From a virus, in IMG/VR virus record IMGVR_UViG_3300022751_000029, positions 1 through 39,555 of that record: a stretch of DNA of 39,555 bases; one strand, given 5' to 3'. The translations under genes were made by a program, and so were the position numbers. The notes beneath the pieces were generated by a model, which was not told the DNA's origin, did not search any database, and was given only the letters and a program-made list of their open reading frames with translations. Below are positions 1 to 39,555 of the stretch, in pieces; position 1 is the first letter of the stretch, and every line of letters begins with the position of its first letter.

Positions 1-123
1 TGAGGGCCAAATCCACGAGTACTTACAGCAGATGAGAGCCGATGGAGGGCGGGAGTGGTTCACCCTGACACCAGAACAGGCAATCGCTCTGGCTATACTT
101 ATTAACAAGATTCCTAGTGTTGA
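1..123. repeat. Left copy of the 123-bp terminal overlap
   Basis: These bases recur at the right end of the window with a single difference (T at 115, A at 39547). The difference changes a proline codon from CCT to CCA and is therefore silent. The reading frame of the GIY-YIG/FtsK-gamma gene is continuous across the join. This is what a circular or circularly permuted genome gives when an assembly is cut open with a residual overlap. A genuine 123-bp direct terminal repeat is possible but less likely, because it would lie inside a gene. Confidence 0.9.
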
Positions 124-520
124 TTTAACCCAGCAGATTACGCTCAGGTCGATACTCTCAAAGCAGGATAAACAGCAGGCAATGATAGTCAGCAAGCTCG
201 ACATAGTAGCTGGAAAACTTAAGAACGTTCCGCTTGATAGAGAATCCATGGAGATAATTAGGAAGTCTAAACAACCTGAACCAGAGAGCCCTTTTGCCAA
301 TGACGATACGGTATATCAGGACGCCAAGTTAGTCGTCATGCAAGCAGGAAAAGCATCGACTTCATTGCTTCAGCGTAAGCTTAAAATAGGATATGGCAGA
401 GCATCACGTACGATAGAACAGCTCGAAGAGGAGGGAATTATCGGCCCAGCTGATGGCGCTAGAGCACGAGTAGTGTACACTGAAGCTATAATTAAACAGG
501 AACAAACCAATGCCCTTTAG
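2..520 (+). CDS. GIY-YIG (MUG113/T5orf172)-FtsK-gamma fusion, 3' part
   Basis: This is the C-terminal 172 codons of a 223-residue protein whose first 51 codons lie at 39281 onward. The first part finishes the MUG113/T5orf172-type GIY-YIG domain (conserved GREWF near residue 67 of the full protein). A linker follows, rich in K/Q and then P/E. Residues of about 152-210 closely resemble the FtsK gamma winged helix: an acidic start, then KASTSLLQRKLKIGYGRA, IEQLEEEGIIGPADG and a basic end. In FtsK that domain reads oriented chromosomal KOPS sites. Here there is no FtsK motor, so the domain presumably only targets DNA. It overlaps the next gene by 11 bp. The domain calls come from motif recognition and are strong for gamma, good for GIY-YIG; the combined role is unknown. 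Confidence 0.85.
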   Translation, partial: EGQIHEYLQQMRADGGREWFTLTPEQAIALAILINKIPSVDLTQQITLRSILSKQDKQQAMIVSKLDIVAGKLKNVPLDRESMEIIRKSKQPEPESPFANDDTVYQDAKLVVMQAGKASTSLLQRKLKIGYGRASRTIEQLEEEGIIGPADGARARVVYTEAIIKQEQTNAL

Positions 521-2500: not shown

Positions 2501-2834
2501 GCCTGCTACCCTTTTTACCATTACAAGTATAACATGCTGGCTCTAGATTAGCATCATCATGTCGCTTGCTGTAGTTGGCGGCATTGCTCTTCGGAATGAC
2601 ATGATCGAGCGTCAAAGCGGTTACATCCATCTGAACACCGCATAGGTAGCATATGTAATAGGGGGCAGGGTGGTTCTTAATCCATTCTGCCCGTATCTCT
2701 TGCCATTTATAAAATTGCTTACCACGCTGTTTGGGGCGTTTCTTAGTCGTAATAGCTGTACGGGGCTTATGCATTAAGCAGAACTCCCCGTAACAGCCCC
2801 GATCACAGCCGTCACGGGAGCAGGTTTTAGCCAT
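2481..2834 (-). CDS. HNH endonuclease
   Basis: 117 residues. An N-terminal zinc-binding-like cluster (CSRDGCDRGCYGEFCLMH) is followed by a basic linker and an HNH core with CYLCG, DHVIPKS, NLEPACYTCNGKKGSR. Two CxxC pairs bind the structural zinc in this family. Such small HNH proteins often accompany phage packaging genes or act as nicking nucleases; here the terminase genes are far away on the other strand. It overlaps genes on both sides. Confidence 0.85.
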   Translation of the reverse strand: MAKTCSRDGCDRGCYGEFCLMHKPRTAITTKKRPKQRGKQFYKWQEIRAEWIKNHPAPYYICYLCGVQMDVTALTLDHVIPKSNAANYSKRHDDANLEPACYTCNGKKGSRHGKETY

Positions 2835-2922
2835 GATAGGTATACACCAGCAATGCTAGGGAACACAGGGCAGCCACAATCAGTATCCCGATTACCATCG
2901 CACCCCTTGATGACTCAATCAT
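2827..2922 (-). CDS. Tiny single-TM protein (31 aa)
   Basis: ATG 2922 forms an ATGA overlap with the previous gene's stop, and its own stop overlaps the HNH start by 8 bp. The product (MIESSRGAMVIGILIVAALCSLALLVYTYHG) is essentially one transmembrane helix. Function unknown; the overlapped chain on both sides supports it being real. Confidence 0.6.
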   Translation of the reverse strand: MIESSRGAMVIGILIVAALCSLALLVYTYHG

Positions 2923-3044
2923 ACTTTCCACTCCTTGAATATCCGTCGCTTCTTAGCTGGCTTGTCTTGGTCGTATGTCCTTACCTTATAGAGGATGAAG
3001 ATACAGATACTAGACATGACCACTGCGCAAAATATGGCTAACAT
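2919..3044 (-). CDS. Small single-TM protein (41 aa)
   Basis: The start ATG 3044 shares one base with the upstream stop (TAATG) and its stop overlaps the next start (ATGA). An N-terminal helix (MLAIFCAVVMSSICIFILYKV) is followed by a basic cytoplasmic-like tail (KPAKKRRIFKEWKV). Unrecognised. Confidence 0.6.
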   Translation of the reverse strand: MLAIFCAVVMSSICIFILYKVRTYDQDKPAKKRRIFKEWKV

Positions 3045-3139
3045 TATTTATCACCCCCAAAGAGTTCTTTGAGCCCACCCCTAACTTTGACAGCTGTGGG
3101 TTTCTTGATTTTCTTAATTTCGTAGCCGAGTAGTTTCAT
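3044..3139 (-). CDS. Small basic protein (31 aa)
   Basis: ATG 3139 follows a strong Shine-Dalgarno sequence (AAGGAGATGAT). The product MKLLGYEIKKIKKP... is lysine-rich and ends GLKELFGGDK. The TAATG overlap to the next gene supports translation. Unrecognised. Confidence 0.6.
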   Translation of the reverse strand: MKLLGYEIKKIKKPTAVKVRGGLKELFGGDK

Positions 3140-3151
3140 ATCATCTCCTTG

Positions 3152-3550
3152 TTATCTTAATTCGTCTCTAGCCCTAAATACCACGATTGCGCTCGGAAAT
3201 GGTGCAGGATTTTCTTGGTCATCAAACTTTAACCGCCCCTTAATGAATCGTATCTCAGTAGCTTTCATGCAGTAATCGTGCCACCACCTTGTATCAGTAC
3301 GGCTAGGAATTAAAAATACCACCGTCTTGCCTTTCTGCCATTCACCAAAACCCTTAGCGATCCAATCGCCAATCTTGCGACCGTAAGGCGGATTAACATA
3401 GTTTGACCCCCCCCATTCGGATGTCAGGCCATCTACGGAATAGTTGGGAGGGCATGGGTCATGGTCAAAGGTAAACTCAGCGTCTAATGTCTGGTATACA
3501 GCCTTGGGTGTTTTCCAATCTAAACGTTCTGACATGAAGTGTGGTTTCAT
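3152..3550 (-). CDS. Phage Dam-like DNA N6-adenine methyltransferase
   Basis: 132 residues, compact for the family. It matches the phage N-6-adenine methyltransferase group (PF05869-like): a DWKTPKAVYQTLDAEF start, a VNPPYG catalytic motif of the [DNS]PPY type, then SRTDTRWWHDY, EIRFIKGRLKF and a final SAIVVF strand. It probably methylates adenine in phage DNA to evade host restriction. The coding strand carries a run of eight G residues (complement of 3407-3414) just before the catalytic motif, a possible slippage site. Confidence 0.85.
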   Translation of the reverse strand: MKPHFMSERLDWKTPKAVYQTLDAEFTFDHDPCPPNYSVDGLTSEWGGSNYVNPPYGRKIGDWIAKGFGEWQKGKTVVFLIPSRTDTRWWHDYCMKATEIRFIKGRLKFDDQENPAPFPSAIVVFRARDELR

Positions 3551-4019: not shown

Positions 4020-4690
4020 TGCTTCTCCGTTTCTTCACGATTAAGGTTGTGGTTTGCTGTGTACCGCCACGAATCAACTTGTCCGCTTAGAAATACATCA
4101 AAATCTTTAATATCACGATTGACCTTGAACCACTTCCATTTATCAAAAGCTGCCTCTGCCTGAATCCGCCTGCCATCTATCCGTGCTGCTGATATAAGGC
4201 TCTGAACTTCTTTCATGATGTCCTCTACTGCGTAAATCTCAGCTGACCTATCGTGGGCTAGAGCGGCTTCACGATACTTTTGCCCCAGCTTAGCTATGGA
4301 CGGGTACCACTGTTTTAGCTCCCCACTAGCTATGTCCTTTGGGGGAGGGGTGGCTAGCTTTGTAGGTTCAAATTCATCTACACGCTTAAGCCCGAAATCG
4401 CTATCGTCAGTAACATCAAGCTCTATGTCGGCTTGTTCCGTCTCACTAGGACGCTTCTGCTCTGACGCTACGGTATAAACATTCTTGCGATAAGAAGTCA
4501 TATCTGTCGCGCCTAAATCCCATTCGTGGGGCTGCTCAGAGGGTGTAGCCTCCACGTCGCCATGGTGCGTATGGCACCATCTACTAAATAGTAAAGCTCG
4601 GTTCTTACAGCCTACGCGAATACATAAGCCGTCTAGGATTTTCTGGTCGCGGTTCGGTTCGCTTGCTGTGGGGTCATGGGGTTGGCTCAT
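4016..4690 (-). CDS. Hypothetical protein with possible zinc knuckle (224 aa)
   Basis: The N-terminus has a Cys/His cluster (CIRVGCKNRALLFSRWCHTHHG, about residues 22-43) that could bind one zinc. A disordered acidic middle and a helical C-terminal half (about residues 115-215) with charged coiled-coil character follow. It overlaps its neighbours by 4 bp. No family is recognised. Confidence 0.75.
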   Translation of the reverse strand: MSQPHDPTASEPNRDQKILDGLCIRVGCKNRALLFSRWCHTHHGDVEATPSEQPHEWDLGATDMTSYRKNVYTVASEQKRPSETEQADIELDVTDDSDFGLKRVDEFEPTKLATPPPKDIASGELKQWYPSIAKLGQKYREAALAHDRSAEIYAVEDIMKEVQSLISAARIDGRRIQAEAAFDKWKWFKVNRDIKDFDVFLSGQVDSWRYTANHNLNREETEKQ

Positions 4691-5548: not shown

Positions 5549-5742
5549 GACTTCTTACCTCGTAAGTACCGCTCCTCTAAGAACAGTGTCATCGGGTAGT
5601 GGTCTTTGTTGCGTATCTCAGCGACCTTCAAGCGTTCTTGTTCCCACTTGTCCCGAAGCTGGGTAGGGACGCGCACCATCATGGTATCGCCACGTTTCTT
5701 TACTGGTTCAGCCTTATCCTTTGAAATTTGCTCTGTTGCCAT
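5545..5742 (-). CDS. Small basic protein, possible ribbon-helix-helix
   Basis: 65 residues. The segment DTMMVRVPTQLRDKWEQERLKVAEIRN resembles a short strand plus helices as in ribbon-helix-helix DNA-binding proteins, preceded by a disordered basic N-terminus. A role as an early regulator is possible. The family call is tentative. Confidence 0.6.
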   Translation of the reverse strand: MATEQISKDKAEPVKKRGDTMMVRVPTQLRDKWEQERLKVAEIRNKDHYPMTLFLEERYLRGKKS

Positions 5743-7146: not shown

Positions 7147-7480
7147 TATGTGCTACGCGCGACCGGCCCGGATTTATCCGTGACTCATCGGGATTCAGCG
7201 ACCCTATCGCAAGGAATCCCTCAGCGCAGTCGGCTATTTCATCGTCATTCTTGGTGAACCCTGTCGATATCATTAGTCGGCGTTCCACCCCAGCCGTCAT
7301 GGGTAGCCGAGATCAGGTTGATACCTCTCTCCCCACGTAGGCAGTAAAACCGAACGTATGTAGGTGAACCTCATGCCACCGAGACGTGTGACAGCTGGGA
7401 CTATGTTAGAATCAAATTAGTCGCTTGCCATGTGTAGGATGACTTCTTAACCCGTCACCCACCTGGCGGGTTTTGTATTT
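7125..7480 (+). ncRNA. Candidate structured RNA of about 0.3-0.35 kb
   Basis: A TATAAT at 7125-7130 (no clear -35) precedes a stretch without convincing genes. It has strong helices: GGGATTC/GAATCCC (7190-7196 with 7214-7220) enclosing GCGA/TCGC; TCGGCTA/TAGCCGA (7230-7236 with 7304-7310); and GACTA/TAGTC (7399-7403 with 7418-7422). A proper intrinsic terminator closes it at 7449-7480. It does not show the conserved cores of RNase P RNA or tmRNA. It could instead be the 3' region of the leaderless gene's mRNA. Confidence 0.35.
7449..7480 (+). terminator. Intrinsic terminator
   Basis: A 9-bp stem AACCCGTCA (7449-7457) / TGGCGGGTT (7464-7472), containing one T-G pair, with a 6-nt loop, followed by a T-rich tail. 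It ends the rightward unit from the 6817 promoter. Confidence 0.8.
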
Positions 7481-7523
7481 ATCCACAACCATTTTCATGA
7501 TGTCAGAGATATGGTTATCCCCA
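7479..7523 (+). promoter_or_regulatory. DnaA box pair, possible origin
   Basis: A perfect TTATCCACA at 7479-7487 and a near match TTATCCCCA at 7515-7523, just after a terminator and before a strong promoter. Together with the box at 6803 they suggest a DnaA-dependent replication origin near 6.8-7.6 kb. Confidence 0.4.
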
Positions 7524-7550
7524 GTTCCATACACAGGCTGAAAACTCAGG

Positions 7551-7591
7551 TTGATGCTGATTTATAACTGACGTATACTACTTATAACTGA
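7551..7591 (+). promoter_or_regulatory. Strong promoter of the giant RNA with flanking direct repeats
   Basis: TTGATG (7551-7556), 17-bp spacer, TATACT (7574-7579); start expected near 7586. Two identical TTATAACTGA repeats (7562-7571 and 7582-7591), 20 bp apart, bracket the -10 on the same helix face, as expected of a regulator-binding site. Confidence 0.65.
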
Positions 7592-7654
7592 AAGGTCTCT
7601 CAACGCTGATAGTCCGAGTAGGGGGTATAAGAATCTTTTAAGGGTATTAGAAAA

Positions 7655-7670
7655 CCCCCATTTCTGGGGG
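7655..7670 (+). other. GC hairpin near the 5' end of the giant RNA
   Basis: CCCCCA-TTTC-TGGGGG, a perfect 6-bp tetraloop hairpin. The GGGGG at 7621-7625 could pair with the same CCCCC, so two alternative folds exist. There is no T-run on this strand; on the opposite strand it would be followed by TTTT. Confidence 0.5.
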
Positions 7671-8136
7671 CTGGTCTCTTAACGCTACTCATATTTTAGC
7701 ACATTTATTTCTTATGCAAATAGTACATTACTTTTCGAGACTACCTTTTGTGGGTATAACCCTGGCTCTGATAATACGACCCCTAAGTGTAGATTACGTT
7801 TTTAGATAATCCGTAACCTACTGTACGTCAACCAGGTCAGTTGCTGAGGAGATAACGGGAATCGGATTCCTTGAGCTCGGGTTGGCCACCCTCTGTCTTC
7901 TCAGCAATGCTCATAAAGATGCCACCTCAATCGTATGTAGGCCTTAATCAATTGTTACTTGTCTGCTTCATAAACCAAGCAAGGCAAAGGGGGTCTAATG
8001 GTCTCTGAACACAGAAATAGGTGTGCAAAACATACGCAGATTGCAGTTGATATAAACGTACACTGCGCGTACACTATAAGCAGAGTTAACTGATACCTGA
8101 CAGATGACTACGGTCACAGGCGAGCTACTCTAAATC

Positions 8137-8240
8137 GGGAAGTTGGCGGAGTGGCTAAACGCTAGTCTTAGTTAGTCTCTCGAGTGGGCTAAGATACCAA
8201 TACTCGGGCGACCATCAGTTCGAATCTGATACTTTCCACC
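8137..8240 (+). tRNA. tRNA-like element (class II shape), non-canonical anticodon arm
   Basis: A clear tRNA frame. Acceptor GGGAAGT (8137-8143) pairs with ACTTTCC (8231-8237). D arm GCG/CGC has an 11-nt GG-containing loop (8146-8162). T arm ATCAG-TTCGAAT-CTGAT (8214-8230) directly abuts the acceptor, and the end is A-CC. Between the D and T arms there are 51 nt, too many for a normal Leu/Ser tRNA. TCTTAG/CTAAGA (8166-8171, 8189-8194) closes a 17-nt loop instead of 7, or CTCGAGT/ACTCGGG (8179-8185, 8202-8208) forms an alternative arm. No confident anticodon can be given. It may be a decayed tRNA, an interrupted tRNA or a tRNA-mimic domain of the giant RNA. Confidence 0.55.
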
Positions 8241-9096
8241 GTGTAGTAGTGAGACGGTAAATTAATCAGCGAACAGTTCGACAGGTAATGCTGGGACTGC
8301 ACTACTGTCGTTTCACTCTACCAATGAACATTTACAACTCGTATCGGAATAGCTGGTAGTAATTACCGTAATAAGTGGCTGGTCGTCCTCCTAGGAGTGA
8401 TAAACGCCTTATTACGTAAAGTAAGTCTTTGGATAAGCGTTTGCTACTGGCTACCCCGATACGAGCACCACTTGGAGTGCAGCTGTGACAATCAGGTACG
8501 TCCGTACAATAGGTGTCGTTAAATGCCAGATTGACATCCTGGGTGGATGGTAACGAAGCATCCCTGATTGTCTACCTGCACTTCATAGCACCTTTAGAGC
8601 GTAGTAGTGCTGGTAGTAAGTGTCTCGCATTGGGCGACCTCTCAAAAAGGTAAGTTCTCCTGAGCATGAGAGTCAGAAACTGCTAACTAGTCCTAACGGG
8701 AATGACGTCAGTAAATGAAACCACTGAGAAGACAGGTGGTGGATACCGTAAAGAGAGACTGCTTCATTGCTACTAGCACCATACGCTTTAACGCACCTTT
8801 ATCAGTCAAAGAGATTAGAGCGCATTGTGGACGGCTAGTTGCAATGGAGAGGCCAAAACCCAGGGCTTACGTCACGCAAGTGGCAACAAGTACAGGTGGA
8901 GGGTCGGTAGGGAGTAATTCTCCCCAAAAAGGTTTACTCGAGAGGTAGATTACCACGCACAAAGGGGCAACCACGGAGAGAGAGCAAAGCTCTCCACTAC
9001 GCGCTTTAATCCATTAGAGCCACACCGATCGGACTAGCTCGCTTTTAAATCGGTGGTTCGTAAGTAAGTTAATATCAGGAAAGGGGAGCACTCAGC

Positions 9097-13182: not shown

Positions 13183-13616
13183 TGGCAACTAAACCGAAAT
13201 TAACACCTACACAGGCTAAGGTTGTTAAAGCTAAAATCAAGTCTGAATTACATGATATACCACAAAGAGTAACATCACAGGAAGTATGGCCTAATGCCAA
13301 GCCAGAAACAGCTGCGATGATGATGTCTCGTGAGATAAGGAAAGATAACGTACAAGATGCCATACAGCAAGCTCTGTACAATCATGGACTTACAACAGAT
13401 GCATTAGCCGAGACAGTAGGTGACGCAATGGTAGCAACCAAGCTGATTCAGGTAGGCACTGAGTTCATAGAATCGGACAAGCCAGATCACTCCATTCGTC
13501 TCAAAGCAGCAGGCATGGCAGCACAATGGATGGGTATCAGTAAAGGTGAGAACGGTGGGGATAGCCTGACATTCATCAAGGTTATCAATGAAGACAAGGG
13601 TAACTATGCCCTATGA
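13182..13616 (+). CDS. terS: Putative small terminase subunit
   Basis: 144 residues directly upstream of the large terminase. The helical N-terminal part (LTPTQAKVVKAKIKSEL ... SQEVWPNAKPETAAMMMSREIRKDNVQDAI) has a helix-turn-helix look, and the centre (DALAETVGDAMVATKLIQVGTEFIESDKPDHSIRLKAAGMAAQWMGI) matches the layout of phage TerS oligomerisation regions. The assignment rests on position and general character. It would recognise phage DNA for packaging. Confidence 0.7.
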   Translation: MATKPKLTPTQAKVVKAKIKSELHDIPQRVTSQEVWPNAKPETAAMMMSREIRKDNVQDAIQQALYNHGLTTDALAETVGDAMVATKLIQVGTEFIESDKPDHSIRLKAAGMAAQWMGISKGENGGDSLTFIKVINEDKGNYAL

Positions 13617-14490
13617 GCCGTTCAAGGGATTAAAGTCCTTACAGAACAGCGACACACCATCTGATACAGGATTCAACTATGAGGGCTATACCCGATTCAT
13701 GGCTGATAGATTCACGATTGTAGATAAGAACAAAACAGAAGTCCCTTTCAGGCAGCAACCTGCACAGAGGGACTTTCTTTATTGGATGTCCCAGTATTAT
13801 CAGATCATTATCCTCAAAGCCCGTAAGATGGGATTCAGTTCAACTGCCCTAGGAGTAGGAGCTACGAAGTTCCTAACAGGTAAGAATGAGAACTGTGTAT
13901 CCATGTCATTCGATGCCGATGCATCTGTTAAGCAGTTAGCTAGAGCCAAGCACTATATCAAGAGTTATGAGCGCAGTACTGGAGTAAAGGTTCCCCTCAA
14001 GTACAACAGACAGAACGCTATGGTATTCGAGGGACATGATAAGGAAACTGGTGAGACCTGGACGAATACATTACGTGTCGGTACAGCCAAGAGCACATCA
14101 TTCGGTCGTGGTGATGACATTACATATCTACACCTTACGGAGGTGTCACTCGTGGATGATATAGAGGTATTACTATCTGGTGTCGGTGAGGCGTTAGTAC
14201 GAGGCGCTCATACGGTACTAGAGACTACGGCTAATGGATTCAACAGCTACAAGCAGTTCTGGGATAAGACCATGCTGAACAATACGGGCTTCGCTGCACT
14301 GTTCTATACACCTGACTGGGAATACGATGAGGATTATCTGGAGATACGACGCAAGCGCTTGGGTAGACTGTACGATCAGGAATACCCCGAGAACCCCGAG
14401 ATGGCATTCCTTACCTCTGGCCTACCATACTTCGATGCATTCGCGATGCGTGACCTGCTACAACGTACACAGGAGACTATATCCGTATGA
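13606..14490 (+). CDS. terL: Large terminase, ATPase part
   Basis: 295 residues from ATG 13606. The motor signatures of TerL are present: a variant Walker A in ILKARKMGFSSTALG, a Walker B-like DITYLHLTEV with the catalytic Glu, and a coupling-type TTANG motif in VLETTANGFNSY. It ends at the normal linker to the nuclease domain. The next gene overlaps by ATGA and carries that nuclease domain. So the large terminase is encoded as two polypeptides, or joined by recoding. It should power DNA translocation through the portal at 15778. Confidence 0.85.
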   Translation: MPYEPFKGLKSLQNSDTPSDTGFNYEGYTRFMADRFTIVDKNKTEVPFRQQPAQRDFLYWMSQYYQIIILKARKMGFSSTALGVGATKFLTGKNENCVSMSFDADASVKQLARAKHYIKSYERSTGVKVPLKYNRQNAMVFEGHDKETGETWTNTLRVGTAKSTSFGRGDDITYLHLTEVSLVDDIEVLLSGVGEALVRGAHTVLETTANGFNSYKQFWDKTMLNNTGFAALFYTPDWEYDEDYLEIRRKRLGRLYDQEYPENPEMAFLTSGLPYFDAFAMRDLLQRTQETISV

Positions 14491-15152
14491 TAGAGCTACT
14501 GAACAAGGATATGTTTCGTTTTTACCGACAGCCTATCAAGGGCGAGTTCTTTCTCGTATTCGTTGATACATCTGGTGAGGGTTCGGATTATAATGCTGGA
14601 CAATTTCTGAGTAAATCACGATTAGATGTTCCGATAGTCATGCACTATGAGGGTTCAATCGTGGATGTCACACCACAGCTTAAAGTCATACTTGAATGGT
14701 TATATGACCAAACGGGTGTACGGCCGGTCGTGTGCTATGAGACGAATAACGGTGGTGGCTATGAGCTTGAACGATTAAGTAGGCTCAACAGATTACAGAA
14801 GTACACCATGTACTACCAATACAAGCTGGATAACGAGGGGCGACTGATGCAGACTGATAAGCTTGGATGGAACACTAACAGTGCTACCCGTCCCGCTATG
14901 TTGACAGGGGTAGAAGATTTAGTGAACAACATGCTCGTGACCATATACGATAAGCCTACCGTTACGGAGATGTTTAGTTTCGTGAAGCATAAGACACCGA
15001 GTGGATGGAAAGCTGAGGCAGAAATGGGGTCACATGACGATCTTATTATGTCCTTAGCTGGTGCGTGGCAGTTATATCAGACAGAGAACCCACCTGTTGT
15101 GCGTCATGAACGTCCTGAACCAAAGCGATTAAAGTTTCACATAGGAGGGTAA
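14487..15152 (+). CDS. terL: Large terminase, nuclease part
   Basis: 221 residues forming an RNase H-like terminase nuclease: a first Asp in FLVFVDTSGEGSDYNAG, an acidic site in VVCYETNNGGGYEL and a final GSHDDLIMSLAGAW. In most tailed phages this is fused to the ATPase in one chain. The start overlaps the ATPase stop as ATGA, favouring termination-reinitiation; the two frames differ by -1. Confidence 0.85.
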   Translation: MIELLNKDMFRFYRQPIKGEFFLVFVDTSGEGSDYNAGQFLSKSRLDVPIVMHYEGSIVDVTPQLKVILEWLYDQTGVRPVVCYETNNGGGYELERLSRLNRLQKYTMYYQYKLDNEGRLMQTDKLGWNTNSATRPAMLTGVEDLVNNMLVTIYDKPTVTEMFSFVKHKTPSGWKAEAEMGSHDDLIMSLAGAWQLYQTENPPVVRHERPEPKRLKFHIGG

Positions 15153-24257: not shown

Positions 24258-24806
24258 ATGAGTATACTACGTAAATCTATTATTGGCATTGCCATCGTCA
24301 CATCTTTCGCTGTAGGCGGAGTAGCTGTACATGTAATCCAAAGTGACGATACACCACCTACCCTGCCAGCCGCATATGTCGAGGTTCCGAAAGAGCCAAG
24401 CATCGACGATATCAACAAGGCTGAACTAGCCACACTTATCAATGCCGAGCGTATCAAGGCTGGATTACCTGAGCTGGTAGTTGATTCACGACTTGAGATG
24501 TCCGCACAGGATAAGTGTAACGATATGGTTGCCCGTAATTACTGGAGCCATAATGACCCAGATGGCAATGAACCATGGGGATTCATACGCAACCATGTGT
24601 CTTATTACCGACAAGCTGGAGAGAACATCGCGTATGGTCAAGAAAGCCCAAGTGTACTTGTAACAGATTGGATGAATAGTCCTACCCACAAAGAAAACAT
24701 ACTAGATGTCGACTTTGATCATGTTGGCTATGGTGTCTGTGAAAGCAAAAACTACGTCATGGATGGTCATCAAATCGTCATAGTTCAGCATTTTGCTGCA
24801 CTGTAG
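24258..24806 (+). CDS. Secreted CAP/SCP-domain protein
   Basis: 182 residues. An N-terminal signal or membrane anchor (RKSIIGIAIVTSFAVGGVAVHVI, residues 5-27) precedes a linker and a CAP domain (about 55-180): LINAERIKAGLPELVVDSRLEMSAQDKCNDMV, YWSHNDPDG, AGENIAYG, DWMNSPTHKENIL, HVGYGVC. Typical CAP His/Glu site residues are present. It has its own promoter and a structured leader, so it behaves as a moron within the structural operon. CAP proteins are extracytoplasmic; possible roles are altering the infected cell's surface or a part in the virion. The exact function is unknown. Confidence 0.85.
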   Translation: MSILRKSIIGIAIVTSFAVGGVAVHVIQSDDTPPTLPAAYVEVPKEPSIDDINKAELATLINAERIKAGLPELVVDSRLEMSAQDKCNDMVARNYWSHNDPDGNEPWGFIRNHVSYYRQAGENIAYGQESPSVLVTDWMNSPTHKENILDVDFDHVGYGVCESKNYVMDGHQIVIVQHFAAL

Positions 24807-35874: not shown

Positions 35875-36089
35875 AGCGTAGCGCAGTTCCCATCAGAACA
35901 GTTCAGGATGTTATCGCTGGTATGTCCCTGCCCTTTCGCCCACGACATCCAGTGTTGCCAGATGGTCATGTTACGGGTTGATTCTTTGGTGACTAATTTA
36001 ACAGTTTTCTCAGCTATCCAGTGGCCGACGATCATCTTGAGACCGACTGTGAATATTAAGAACTCTAGTATATTTTTTAATACGTTCAT
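35871..36089 (-). CDS. Small membrane protein (72 aa)
   Basis: MNVLKNILEFLIFTVGLKMIVGHWIAEKTV... has an N-terminal hydrophobic helix and a soluble tail with two cysteines (NCSDGNC). Last gene of the leftward right-end operon; convergent with the holin-like gene. The upstream AAAGGTTTAAAAGAA serves as a loose ribosome site. Confidence 0.6.
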   Translation of the reverse strand: MNVLKNILEFLIFTVGLKMIVGHWIAEKTVKLVTKESTRNMTIWQHWMSWAKGQGHTSDNILNCSDGNCATL

Positions 36090-38549: not shown

Positions 38550-38576
38550 ATCGTACACCTCCTCAGGTATGTCTAT

Positions 38577-38605
38577 ATACTACCAAAATACATGGTGCTC
38601 TGCAA
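38577..38605 (-). promoter_or_regulatory. Leftward promoter of the recombination operon
   Basis: TTGCAG (38600-38605), 17-bp spacer, TAGTAT (38577-38582) reading leftward. It is divergent from the rightward -10 at 38636. AGGTATGTC occurs at 38565-38573 and again at 38644-38652, once near each start point, and may bind one regulator. Confidence 0.55.
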
Positions 38606-38635
38606 TACGTTAGTGCATGAAATGTCAGCAGGATT

Positions 38636-38641
38636 TATACT
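38636..38641 (+). promoter_or_regulatory. -10 element of a leaderless rightward gene
   Basis: TATACT, 6 nt before ATG 38648; only a weak -35 is visible. Confidence 0.5.
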
Positions 38642-38647
38642 ATAGGT

Positions 38648-38803
38648 ATGTCATATGAAATCGGGACTTCTGTCTCACTAACACATCTAAATAAACCAAA
38701 GGCGGTCGCTAAAACGCGGCGTAAATTTCCACCTATTTCGCAAGCGGAAATCAAAGAACTGATGGCGTATCTTCAGTCCGTTTATCCACAGGCCACAGCC
38801 TAA
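38648..38803 (+). CDS. Leaderless small basic protein (51 aa)
   Basis: MSYEIGTSVSLTHLNKPKAVAKTRRKFPPISQAEIKELMAYLQSVYPQATA. The basic middle and helical end suggest nucleic-acid or protein binding. The -10 lies so close that the transcript should begin at the ATG. A perfect DnaA box (TTATCCACA, 38782-38790) lies inside its coding sequence. Divergent from the ERF operon, so it could be an early regulator. Confidence 0.55.
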   Translation: MSYEIGTSVSLTHLNKPKAVAKTRRKFPPISQAEIKELMAYLQSVYPQATA

Positions 38804-38806
38804 AAC

Positions 38807-38834
38807 TTGCAATATAAAAATGGTGTTGTATACT
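38807..38834 (+). promoter_or_regulatory. Promoter of a small RNA
   Basis: TTGCAA (38807-38812), 16-bp spacer, TATACT (38829-38834). TTGTATAC (38826-38833), a sequence repeated twice further on, overlaps the -10. Confidence 0.6.
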
Positions 38835-38840
38835 GCTTCG

Positions 38841-38966
38841 CTTTGGATTATAGTTCCTAGTAAGGTCAAGCTTGCCCGACAAAAACACAAACGGGTTATA
38901 CCACAAAACAAAAATACACCTCCTCCATTAAACGGAACCCACGCTCTCGCAAAGGTTCCGTTTTTG
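38841..38966 (+). ncRNA. Candidate small RNA with anti-Shine-Dalgarno stretch
   Basis: About 125 nt between a promoter and a strong terminator, with no frame of note. An A-rich unpaired region contains CACCTCCT (38917-38924), identical to the conserved 3' tail of bacterial 16S rRNA and able to pair with ribosome-binding sites. It sits just 5' of the terminator hairpin, where sRNA seed regions are often found. Function is inferred. Confidence 0.5.
38931..38966 (+). terminator. Intrinsic terminator of the small RNA
   Basis: AACGGAACC/GGTTCCGTT, a perfect 9-bp stem (38931-38939 and 38954-38962) with a run of five T residues. Confidence 0.85.
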
Positions 38967-39039
38967 GTTATTGAATACATTTTGTATACGGGCAATATTG
39001 TGTCGAAATATGCTTAATATTTAGGCTTTAGAAACCTTA

Positions 39040-39113
39040 CAGGGGTGGACCTCTGTTAACCGTAGTCCCCTGCCCCAGCCATAAGCGGGTTGCCATCAGG
39101 GGTCAGATTTTTT
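39040..39113 (+). terminator. Terminator-like element with alternative anti-terminator pairing
   Basis: CCCCTG (39067-39072) can pair either with the upstream CAGGGG (39040-39045) or with the downstream CAGGGG (39097-39102); the latter helix is followed by six T residues (39108-39113). Inside it CAGCC/GGGTTG adds stability. The arrangement permits attenuation, but no upstream promoter is certain. Confidence 0.5.
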
Positions 39114-39180
39114 CTTGGCGACTTCCATGCTAAAGAGGGTAGCTACATAATAAGTAGAACAACTAAGCAAATTAGTAGTG

Positions 39181-39249
39181 TGCTATACTTGTATTATCGG
39201 TTGGAGACGATATACAATTTGTATATAAATATGGGTCACTAGCTCCAAC
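39181..39249 (+). promoter_or_regulatory. Promoter, operator-like palindrome and leader stem of the GIY-YIG gene
   Basis: Extended -10 TGC-TATACT (39181-39189). A perfect palindrome TATACAA-T-TTGTATA (39211-39225) lies about 15 nt after the expected start and would suit a dimeric repressor. GTTGGAG (39200-39206) pairs with CTCCAAC (39243-39249), closing the palindrome in one leader stem. The ribosome site TTGGAG lies at 39266-39271. Confidence 0.55.
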
Positions 39250-39280
39250 TGGTGGCCTTTATTTATTGGAGAACAACATC

Positions 39281-39555
39281 ATGAGATACGTATACATGTT
39301 GAAAGTCGGAGAGAGTCATTACAAGGTCGGTATAGCCAAAGAGGTTGTACAACGAGTCAAAGAACTACAGACTTCTAACCCAAATGTGATTGAGATTGTT
39401 ACTACGAAAATCGTAGAAGACGAGTATAAAACTGAGGGCCAAATCCACGAGTACTTACAGCAGATGAGAGCCGATGGAGGGCGGGAGTGGTTCACCCTGA
39501 CACCAGAACAGGCAATCGCTCTGGCTATACTTATTAACAAGATTCCAAGTGTTGA
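39281..39555 (+). CDS. GIY-YIG (MUG113/T5orf172)-FtsK-gamma fusion, 5' part
   Basis: The first 91 codons in this copy, continuing at base 2 of the window. MRYVYMLKVGESHYKVGIAKEVVQRVKELQTSNPNVIEI shows the paired YVYML and YKVGIA strands of the GIY-YIG-like T5orf172/MUG113 family. The motif is not canonical (YVYMLKVG instead of GIY), and a Glu in YKTEGQIHEYL is the candidate metal ligand, so catalytic activity is uncertain. Ribosome site TTGGAG upstream. Confidence 0.85.
   Translation, partial: MRYVYMLKVGESHYKVGIAKEVVQRVKELQTSNPNVIEIVTTKIVEDEYKTEGQIHEYLQQMRADGGREWFTLTPEQAIALAILINKIPSV
39433..39555. repeat. Right copy of the 123-bp terminal overlap
   Basis: Identical to bases 1-123 except A at 39547 against T at 115. 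Indicates a circular or permuted genome; the mismatch is a silent population variant or an error. Confidence 0.9.

Follow-up and report, generated by a model that had tools for sequence, protein, structure and literature searches.

A phage protein joining a GIY-YIG domain to an FtsK gamma domain: a candidate KOPS-reading nuclease in probable phages of Patescibacteria

The closest described relatives of the protein studied here are Odn (Gp88 of the Vibrio phage ICP1) and the T5orf172-RepA_N proteins, in which a phage T5orf172 domain is joined to a DNA-binding domain from another replicon, as described in PMC8263062 and PMC10448857. The captured domain of Odn, an N-terminal RepA_N from a satellite, makes the T5orf172 nuclease a weapon against a competing replicon, whose origin it cuts; Odn retains the catalytic Arg and Glu, is without the His/Tyr of the first helix and loses its activity upon the E180A change (PMC8263062). 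Address-domain swapping among T5orf172 nucleases has been described in its own right (PMC10448857). I-TevI, the homing endonuclease of T4, likewise consists of a GIY-YIG domain, a linker and a separate DNA-binding domain, and it binds without cutting at an operator 5' of its own gene (PMC2988022). Motor-less FtsK gamma domains are widespread in phages; the gamma-small terminase of Sam46/Sam112 carries a host-like one, for which KOPS-type sites are the proposed target, and according to the same source gamma genes that occur singly have no known role (PMC8190038).

We analysed a 39,555-nucleotide stretch of viral DNA (IMGVR_UViG_3300022751_000029, hereafter the window), which encodes a 223-residue protein combining a GIY-YIG domain of the T5orf172 kind with an FtsK gamma domain. 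Like Odn, it retains the catalytic Arg and Glu and apparently lacks the first-helix His/Tyr, but its DNA-binding domain is a C-terminal gamma, probably taken from a bacterial FtsK. With I-TevI it shares the layout and a (candidate) binding site 5' of its own gene, whereas the DNA-binding module differs and, in contrast to the intron-encoded I-TevI (PMC2988022), no intron was seen for the window gene. The Sam46/Sam112 protein functions in packaging and is without a GIY-YIG-type nuclease domain, which the window protein has. The gamma is also common to the FtsK/SpoIIIE translocase, but the ATPase motor is absent: Pfam found neither a RecA-like motor domain (FtsK/SpoIIIE translocase) nor RepA_N in the 223 residues. 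The first-pass annotation knew of no described system with this pairing, and a literature search (reaching few subscription journals) found no publication on it; the general design is, however, known from Odn and the other proteins above (PMC8263062, PMC10448857 and PMC8190038). The reader module is new and the kind already known, a T5orf172 nuclease with a captured DNA-binding domain.

A 123-nt terminal direct repeat (39433..39555 equals 1-123 save one base, the mismatch being silent in the protein) marks the window as a circular phage contig. Because the ends share this repeat, the frame 39281..39432 plus 1..520 encodes a single 223-aa protein. The 5' part of the gene (39281..39555, plus strand) begins with an ATG at 39281 and holds the GIY-YIG domain (T5orf172/MUG113, residues 3-82 by Pfam and the predicted model). 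The 3' part, past the contig junction (1..520, plus strand; stop codon at 518-520 in the junction translation), encodes a linker of residues about 92-150 (122..298, plus strand), weakly conserved in the alignment and modelled with a long helix at 94-125, and the FtsK gamma winged helix of residues 151-211 (299..481, plus strand; PF09397, 86.3 bits in a DNA search). Pfam and the junction translation thus bear out the earlier proposal of a fusion crossing the sequence ends, and the gamma that it placed at about 300-480 matches PF09397 at 299-481; the interval given for the whole feature, 39281-39555, does contain the GIY-YIG half and leaves the gamma half outside. In two homologs described below (L188 and L189) the two-domain protein is a single unbroken ORF, so joining the contig ends did not create the architecture.

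In the N-terminal half, Pfam matched MUG113 (E 8.9e-14, residues 14-82) and T5orf172 (E 3.1e-10, residues 3-81), both above the curated cut-offs; these are two profiles (PF10544 and PF13455) of one GIY-YIG subgroup. The predicted model of the isolated half (pLDDT 90) was submitted to a structural aligner against Foldseek's top-ranked chains, and the GIY-YIG enzymes Slx1 (Z 5.6, rmsd 3.0, 87 aligned), HIGLE (Z 5.3) and I-TevI (Z 4.1, rmsd 3.5, 68 aligned) ranked near the top; a plain Foldseek search with the same model gave zero matches at E<=0.001. As modelled, the N-terminal half has the GIY-YIG fold, at modest Z-scores of 4.1-5.6. Y5, Y14, G17, R25, E52, H56 and the EWF at 69-71 are identical in all three homologs, and R25 and E52 line up with an Arg and a Glu in L333, which aligned best among the T5orf172 domains of phage ICP1, in a comparison that used the other T5orf172 genes of ICP1_2004_A and not Odn. 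We take R25 and E52 to be the counterparts of I-TevI R27 and E75, in line with the text of PMC8263062. The catalytic His of many GIY-YIG enzymes is not apparent in the window protein, as in Odn. On this half PADLOC returned only a weak candidate family, PDC-S57.

The C-terminal half is FtsK gamma, as the first reading had it, and no other winged-helix family: Pfam FtsK_gamma covers residues 151-211 (E 6.3e-24, over the curated cut-off), and in the full model (mean pLDDT 70 for this part) the gamma overlays 2ve9, a structure of FtsK gamma on KOPS, at 1.0 A over 55 alignment columns. By count along the alignment, the counterpart of E. coli FtsK N1296 is presumably Gly183 of the window protein, a point against the nuclease reading favoured below. 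A triple change of R1300, E1303 and E1306 makes E. coli FtsK KOPS-blind (PMC2680272); in the alignment, with the numbering placed by count, these residues are R187, E190 and E193 here. L188 retains all three, and in L189, the most distant member, E190 is replaced by Asp. The main XerD contact of E. coli FtsK, R1289 (PMC5052618), corresponds by count to R176, the same in all three homologs. Such invariance would suit a gamma directed at host FtsK or XerD and not at phage DNA, for instance to block division or to use host Xer recombination. However, the equivalent Arg is identical in all 12 aligned rows and so has no discriminating value for this reading, a search of the window for dif-like sites, allowing up to 3 mismatches to the E. 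coli core, found none, and a FtsK or XerD target would leave the fused nuclease unexplained. We regard such a target as very improbable.

A gamma-profile scan of IMG/VR gave full-length homologs in two further phage records, IMGVR_UViG_3300037418_002710 (L188/L201; 44% identity, ORF 2501-3175) and IMGVR_UViG_3300005617_000294 (L189/L202; 38% identity, ORF 1371-2048). Both domains were matched by Pfam in all three members, with the cut-off shown for the window protein. The remaining IMG/VR matches start no earlier than residue 83 and so cover the gamma with or without the linker, at 64 of 64, 18 of 20 and 35 of 37 loci in three overlapping sets; another set of 18 loci was queried with the gamma alone. 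The homolog contigs, compared over 18.6 kb and 11 kb, otherwise share with the window only a LysM-type protein and an HNH plus a methyltransferase-like protein, respectively. Among the best-scoring matches listed for Patescibacteria (285, 153 and 117 genomes in overlapping sets), which were all FtsK, the two-domain protein was not found.

Other gamma fusions were observed along the way. Two phage-collection contigs, L002 and L018, resemble the window in joining a nuclease domain to gamma (Mrr_cat plus FtsK_gamma), and L009 (1741-3459) has Mrr_cat, FtsK_SpoIIIE ATPase and FtsK_gamma in one protein (Pfam); in all of these the nuclease is of the Mrr type and the domain order is different, whereas that of the window is GIY-YIG. 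L193 (2246-3481) is a small terminase of the Sam46/Sam112 kind, in which Pfam places the FtsK gamma after the helix-turn-helix and before Terminase_2, and L191 and L196 look alike by eye. L216 (3671-4288), on the Patescibacteria-phylum chromosome G411, appears by eye to join a response-regulator receiver domain to FtsK gamma, of which Pfam supports the gamma only.

The nearest bacterial gammas belong to FtsK of Patescibacteria (60-80% identical), the group that also provides the best named matches, and within this phylum the class centred on G324 gives the best scores. The window gamma is 65% identical over 58 residues to the FtsK of a Patescibacteria-phylum genome (L206), and the gammas of both homologs reach 81% with Patescibacteria FtsK over 48-53 columns. 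In a gamma tree the Patescibacteria FtsK rows were closest, but the branch there was without support. From this resemblance we infer that the three phages probably infect Patescibacteria. For the major capsid protein, the nearest matches (about 35%) were in Streptococcus and Geobacillus phages; the portal had no relatives in the collections searched, nor did these yield a close phage lacking the gene for a presence/absence comparison at a homing site. Short gamma ORFs in Paceibacteria genomes turned out to be cut or broken FtsK genes. In the class of G324, 16 of 117 genomes had a very divergent gamma only (best E 1e-8 to 1e-4).

We examined the strand distribution of the E. coli type KOPS, GGGNAGGG, in four genomes of this class, scoring polarity with two fitted switch points against strand shuffles. 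The motif was strand-polarised in all four: 67 of 74 sites agreed in G505 (0/1000 shuffles reaching this value), 23 of 26 in G539 (3/1000), 69 of 90 in G532 (0/300) and 56 of 62 in G544 (0/300). A reversed control word, scored in two genomes, was less polarised, with some polarity in G544 (43/56, reached by 10/300 shuffles; 33/46 in G532, by 59/300), and when the arms were taken from GC skew alone the GGGNAGGG bias was weaker (56:34 and 41:21). Our reading of these motif counts is that the class probably uses KOPS of the E. coli type. The fitted switch points divide the chromosomes of G544, G532 and G505 unequally, and in G544 and G532 they lie off the GC-skew maximum (in G544, near 127 kb and 1040 kb vs near 360 kb). 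Another word, AGGGGTGG, part of a 12-mer shared by two of the phages (see below), was tried as the class KOPS and rejected: it made a good start on the GC-skew leading strand (25:6 in G532 and 18:0 in G544, rank 1 of 26,554 words) and failed in further genomes, with 22/27 in G539 (74/1000 shuffles reaching it), 26/36 in G505 (420/1000) and just 11 sites in G358 and 9 in G525. That the protein is aimed at KOPS, as the first-pass annotation supposed, is plausible, since its KOPS-reading residues are kept and the class with the nearest gammas has polarised GGGNAGGG in each of the genomes examined.

The phage itself carries such sites. GGGNAGGG occurs in the window at 2663..2670, 4342..4349 and 5661..5668 on the plus strand and at 35926..35933 on the minus strand, and a further KOPS, GGGCAGGG at 39068-39075, lies within a minus-strand 10-mer (39066..39075) in common with L201. 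These five sites compare with 2.35 expected, a total that 7 of 100 shuffles attained, and KOPS depletion was not seen in the phage; GAGAAGGG is present once vs 0.92 expected. The counts bear on the idea that the protein is a host-takeover enzyme cutting the host chromosome at its numerous KOPS. Its gamma is host-like, and the class whose gammas match best has polarised KOPS in 4/4 genomes examined, as such an enzyme would call for, but a phage with five undepleted KOPS of its own argues against an unrestricted KOPS cutter, and shielding by the phage methyltransferase-like genes would be conjecture. We therefore consider a host-takeover role improbable, and the earlier suggestion that the protein attacks or marks the host chromosome was not borne out.

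The gene is preceded by a candidate control region of 722 nt (38559..39280), which separates it from a divergent small ORF and the ERF/NinB genes (PHROGs). The KOPS in this region lies 210 nt 5' of the window gene, and a KOPS lies 62 nt 5' of the L201 gene, the flanking DNA being partly common to both. A 12-mer, ACAGGGGTGGAC, on the plus strand at 39039..39050 recurs 5' of the L201 homolog gene on the other strand, and in both phages the 12-mer and the 10-mer are at most 60 bp apart, a closeness matched by 51 of 5000 dinucleotide shuffles. L202 had no upstream element in common with the other phages, and a scan of the viral collection for the window-type element gave 11 chance-like matches, none with a homolog of the protein. 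The upstream region gave no sign of an RNA element: Rfam returned nothing up to E 1, and the fold z was 0.30.

Per record, GGGNAGGG was found five times in the window, seven in L201 and twice in L202. All 14 of these sites are oriented away from the gene (6.5e-5 under a uniform null) and 12 of the 14 lie within 6.5 kb of it (5e-5 under a uniform null). Against this, 50 of 100 sites of same-composition G-rich words in the window were also near the gene and 66 of 100 pointed away, and a pooled orientation control gave 12/12 GGGNAGGG away vs a baseline of 72%. Four of the five window KOPS are on the template strand of neighbouring genes or ORFs, the fifth being intergenic, so gene direction may account for the polarity. 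Clustering and outward polarity of KOPS around the gene are thus suggestive. Other gamma-encoding phages follow no general rule: KOPS is absent (0 sites) from the Vibrio phage MG592546, whereas in the Pseudomonas phage JX403939 one strand holds 11 of the 12 GGGNAGGG.

This arrangement is what a DNA-binding regulator or replication factor might show, with gamma sitting on KOPS-like sites by the gene, the T5orf172 domain accessory and cutting irrelevant. In all three phages the gene is a solitary one, preceded by an upstream region of 600-720 nt, and in the window the ERF/NinB recombination genes diverge from it; among phage proteins, annotations of T5orf172-like domains extend to helicases, a DnaD-like loader, a replication initiation protein and a Cro/C1-type regulator; and the nearness and outward orientation of the sites would fit. 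However, R25 and E52 are unchanged despite 37-44% overall identity, which tells against an accessory domain, and both clustering and polarity are weak beside the G-rich control words and the template-strand placement. On balance we think a purely regulatory or replicative role rather unlikely.

The reading that we favour, and to which we would give an even chance, is that of a T5orf172-type GIY-YIG nuclease directed to specific sites, which would read DNA by a gamma from a Patescibacteria-like host FtsK. It joins the two domains observed in one protein, their recurrence in a trio of phages, the Arg and Glu conserved there, the KOPS-reading residues and the nearness of the gamma to Patescibacteria FtsK. 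The address module of a T5orf172 nuclease would have been swapped for a host FtsK gamma; the gamma would bind KOPS-type DNA (GGGNAGGG), the helical linker would fix the distance between it and the catalytic domain, and cutting would occur only where a suitable cut sequence sits at that linker-set distance. At its own promoter region, with its KOPS, the protein may bind without cutting and so repress itself; the upstream KOPS fits such self-control, and I-TevI represses itself in this way at its operator. As the cut target, the first candidate would be a site for homing into related phages, and the second a KOPS-using replicon, which could be the chromosome of the host or a competing element. 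More broadly, we put forward as tentative, and as possible rather than probable, that phages of Patescibacteria use the polarity code of their host as an address, with a KOPS-reading GIY-YIG nuclease acting on KOPS-bearing DNA and controlling itself via the KOPS of its promoter region. A gamma joined to a predicted nuclease, with intact reading residues and a probable host class whose examined genomes have polarised KOPS, offers a testable case of what such motor-less readers are for, and it would extend the address modules of T5orf172 nucleases to a host segregation signal.

Further features of the contigs were observed. The window is ORF-poor at 7300-9090, where the longest plus-strand ORF between 7341 and 9090 is 77 aa and neither a tRNA nor an Rfam match was detected. 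Its terminase large subunit is seemingly in two ORFs with a four-base overlap (13588-14490 and 14487-15152; PHROGs). Directly 3' of the homolog gene in L202, an ORF at 2205-2810 appears ParB-like by eye, with no NCBIfam match. A YkwD/CAP-domain protein is encoded at 24258-24806 of the window, amid the structural genes.
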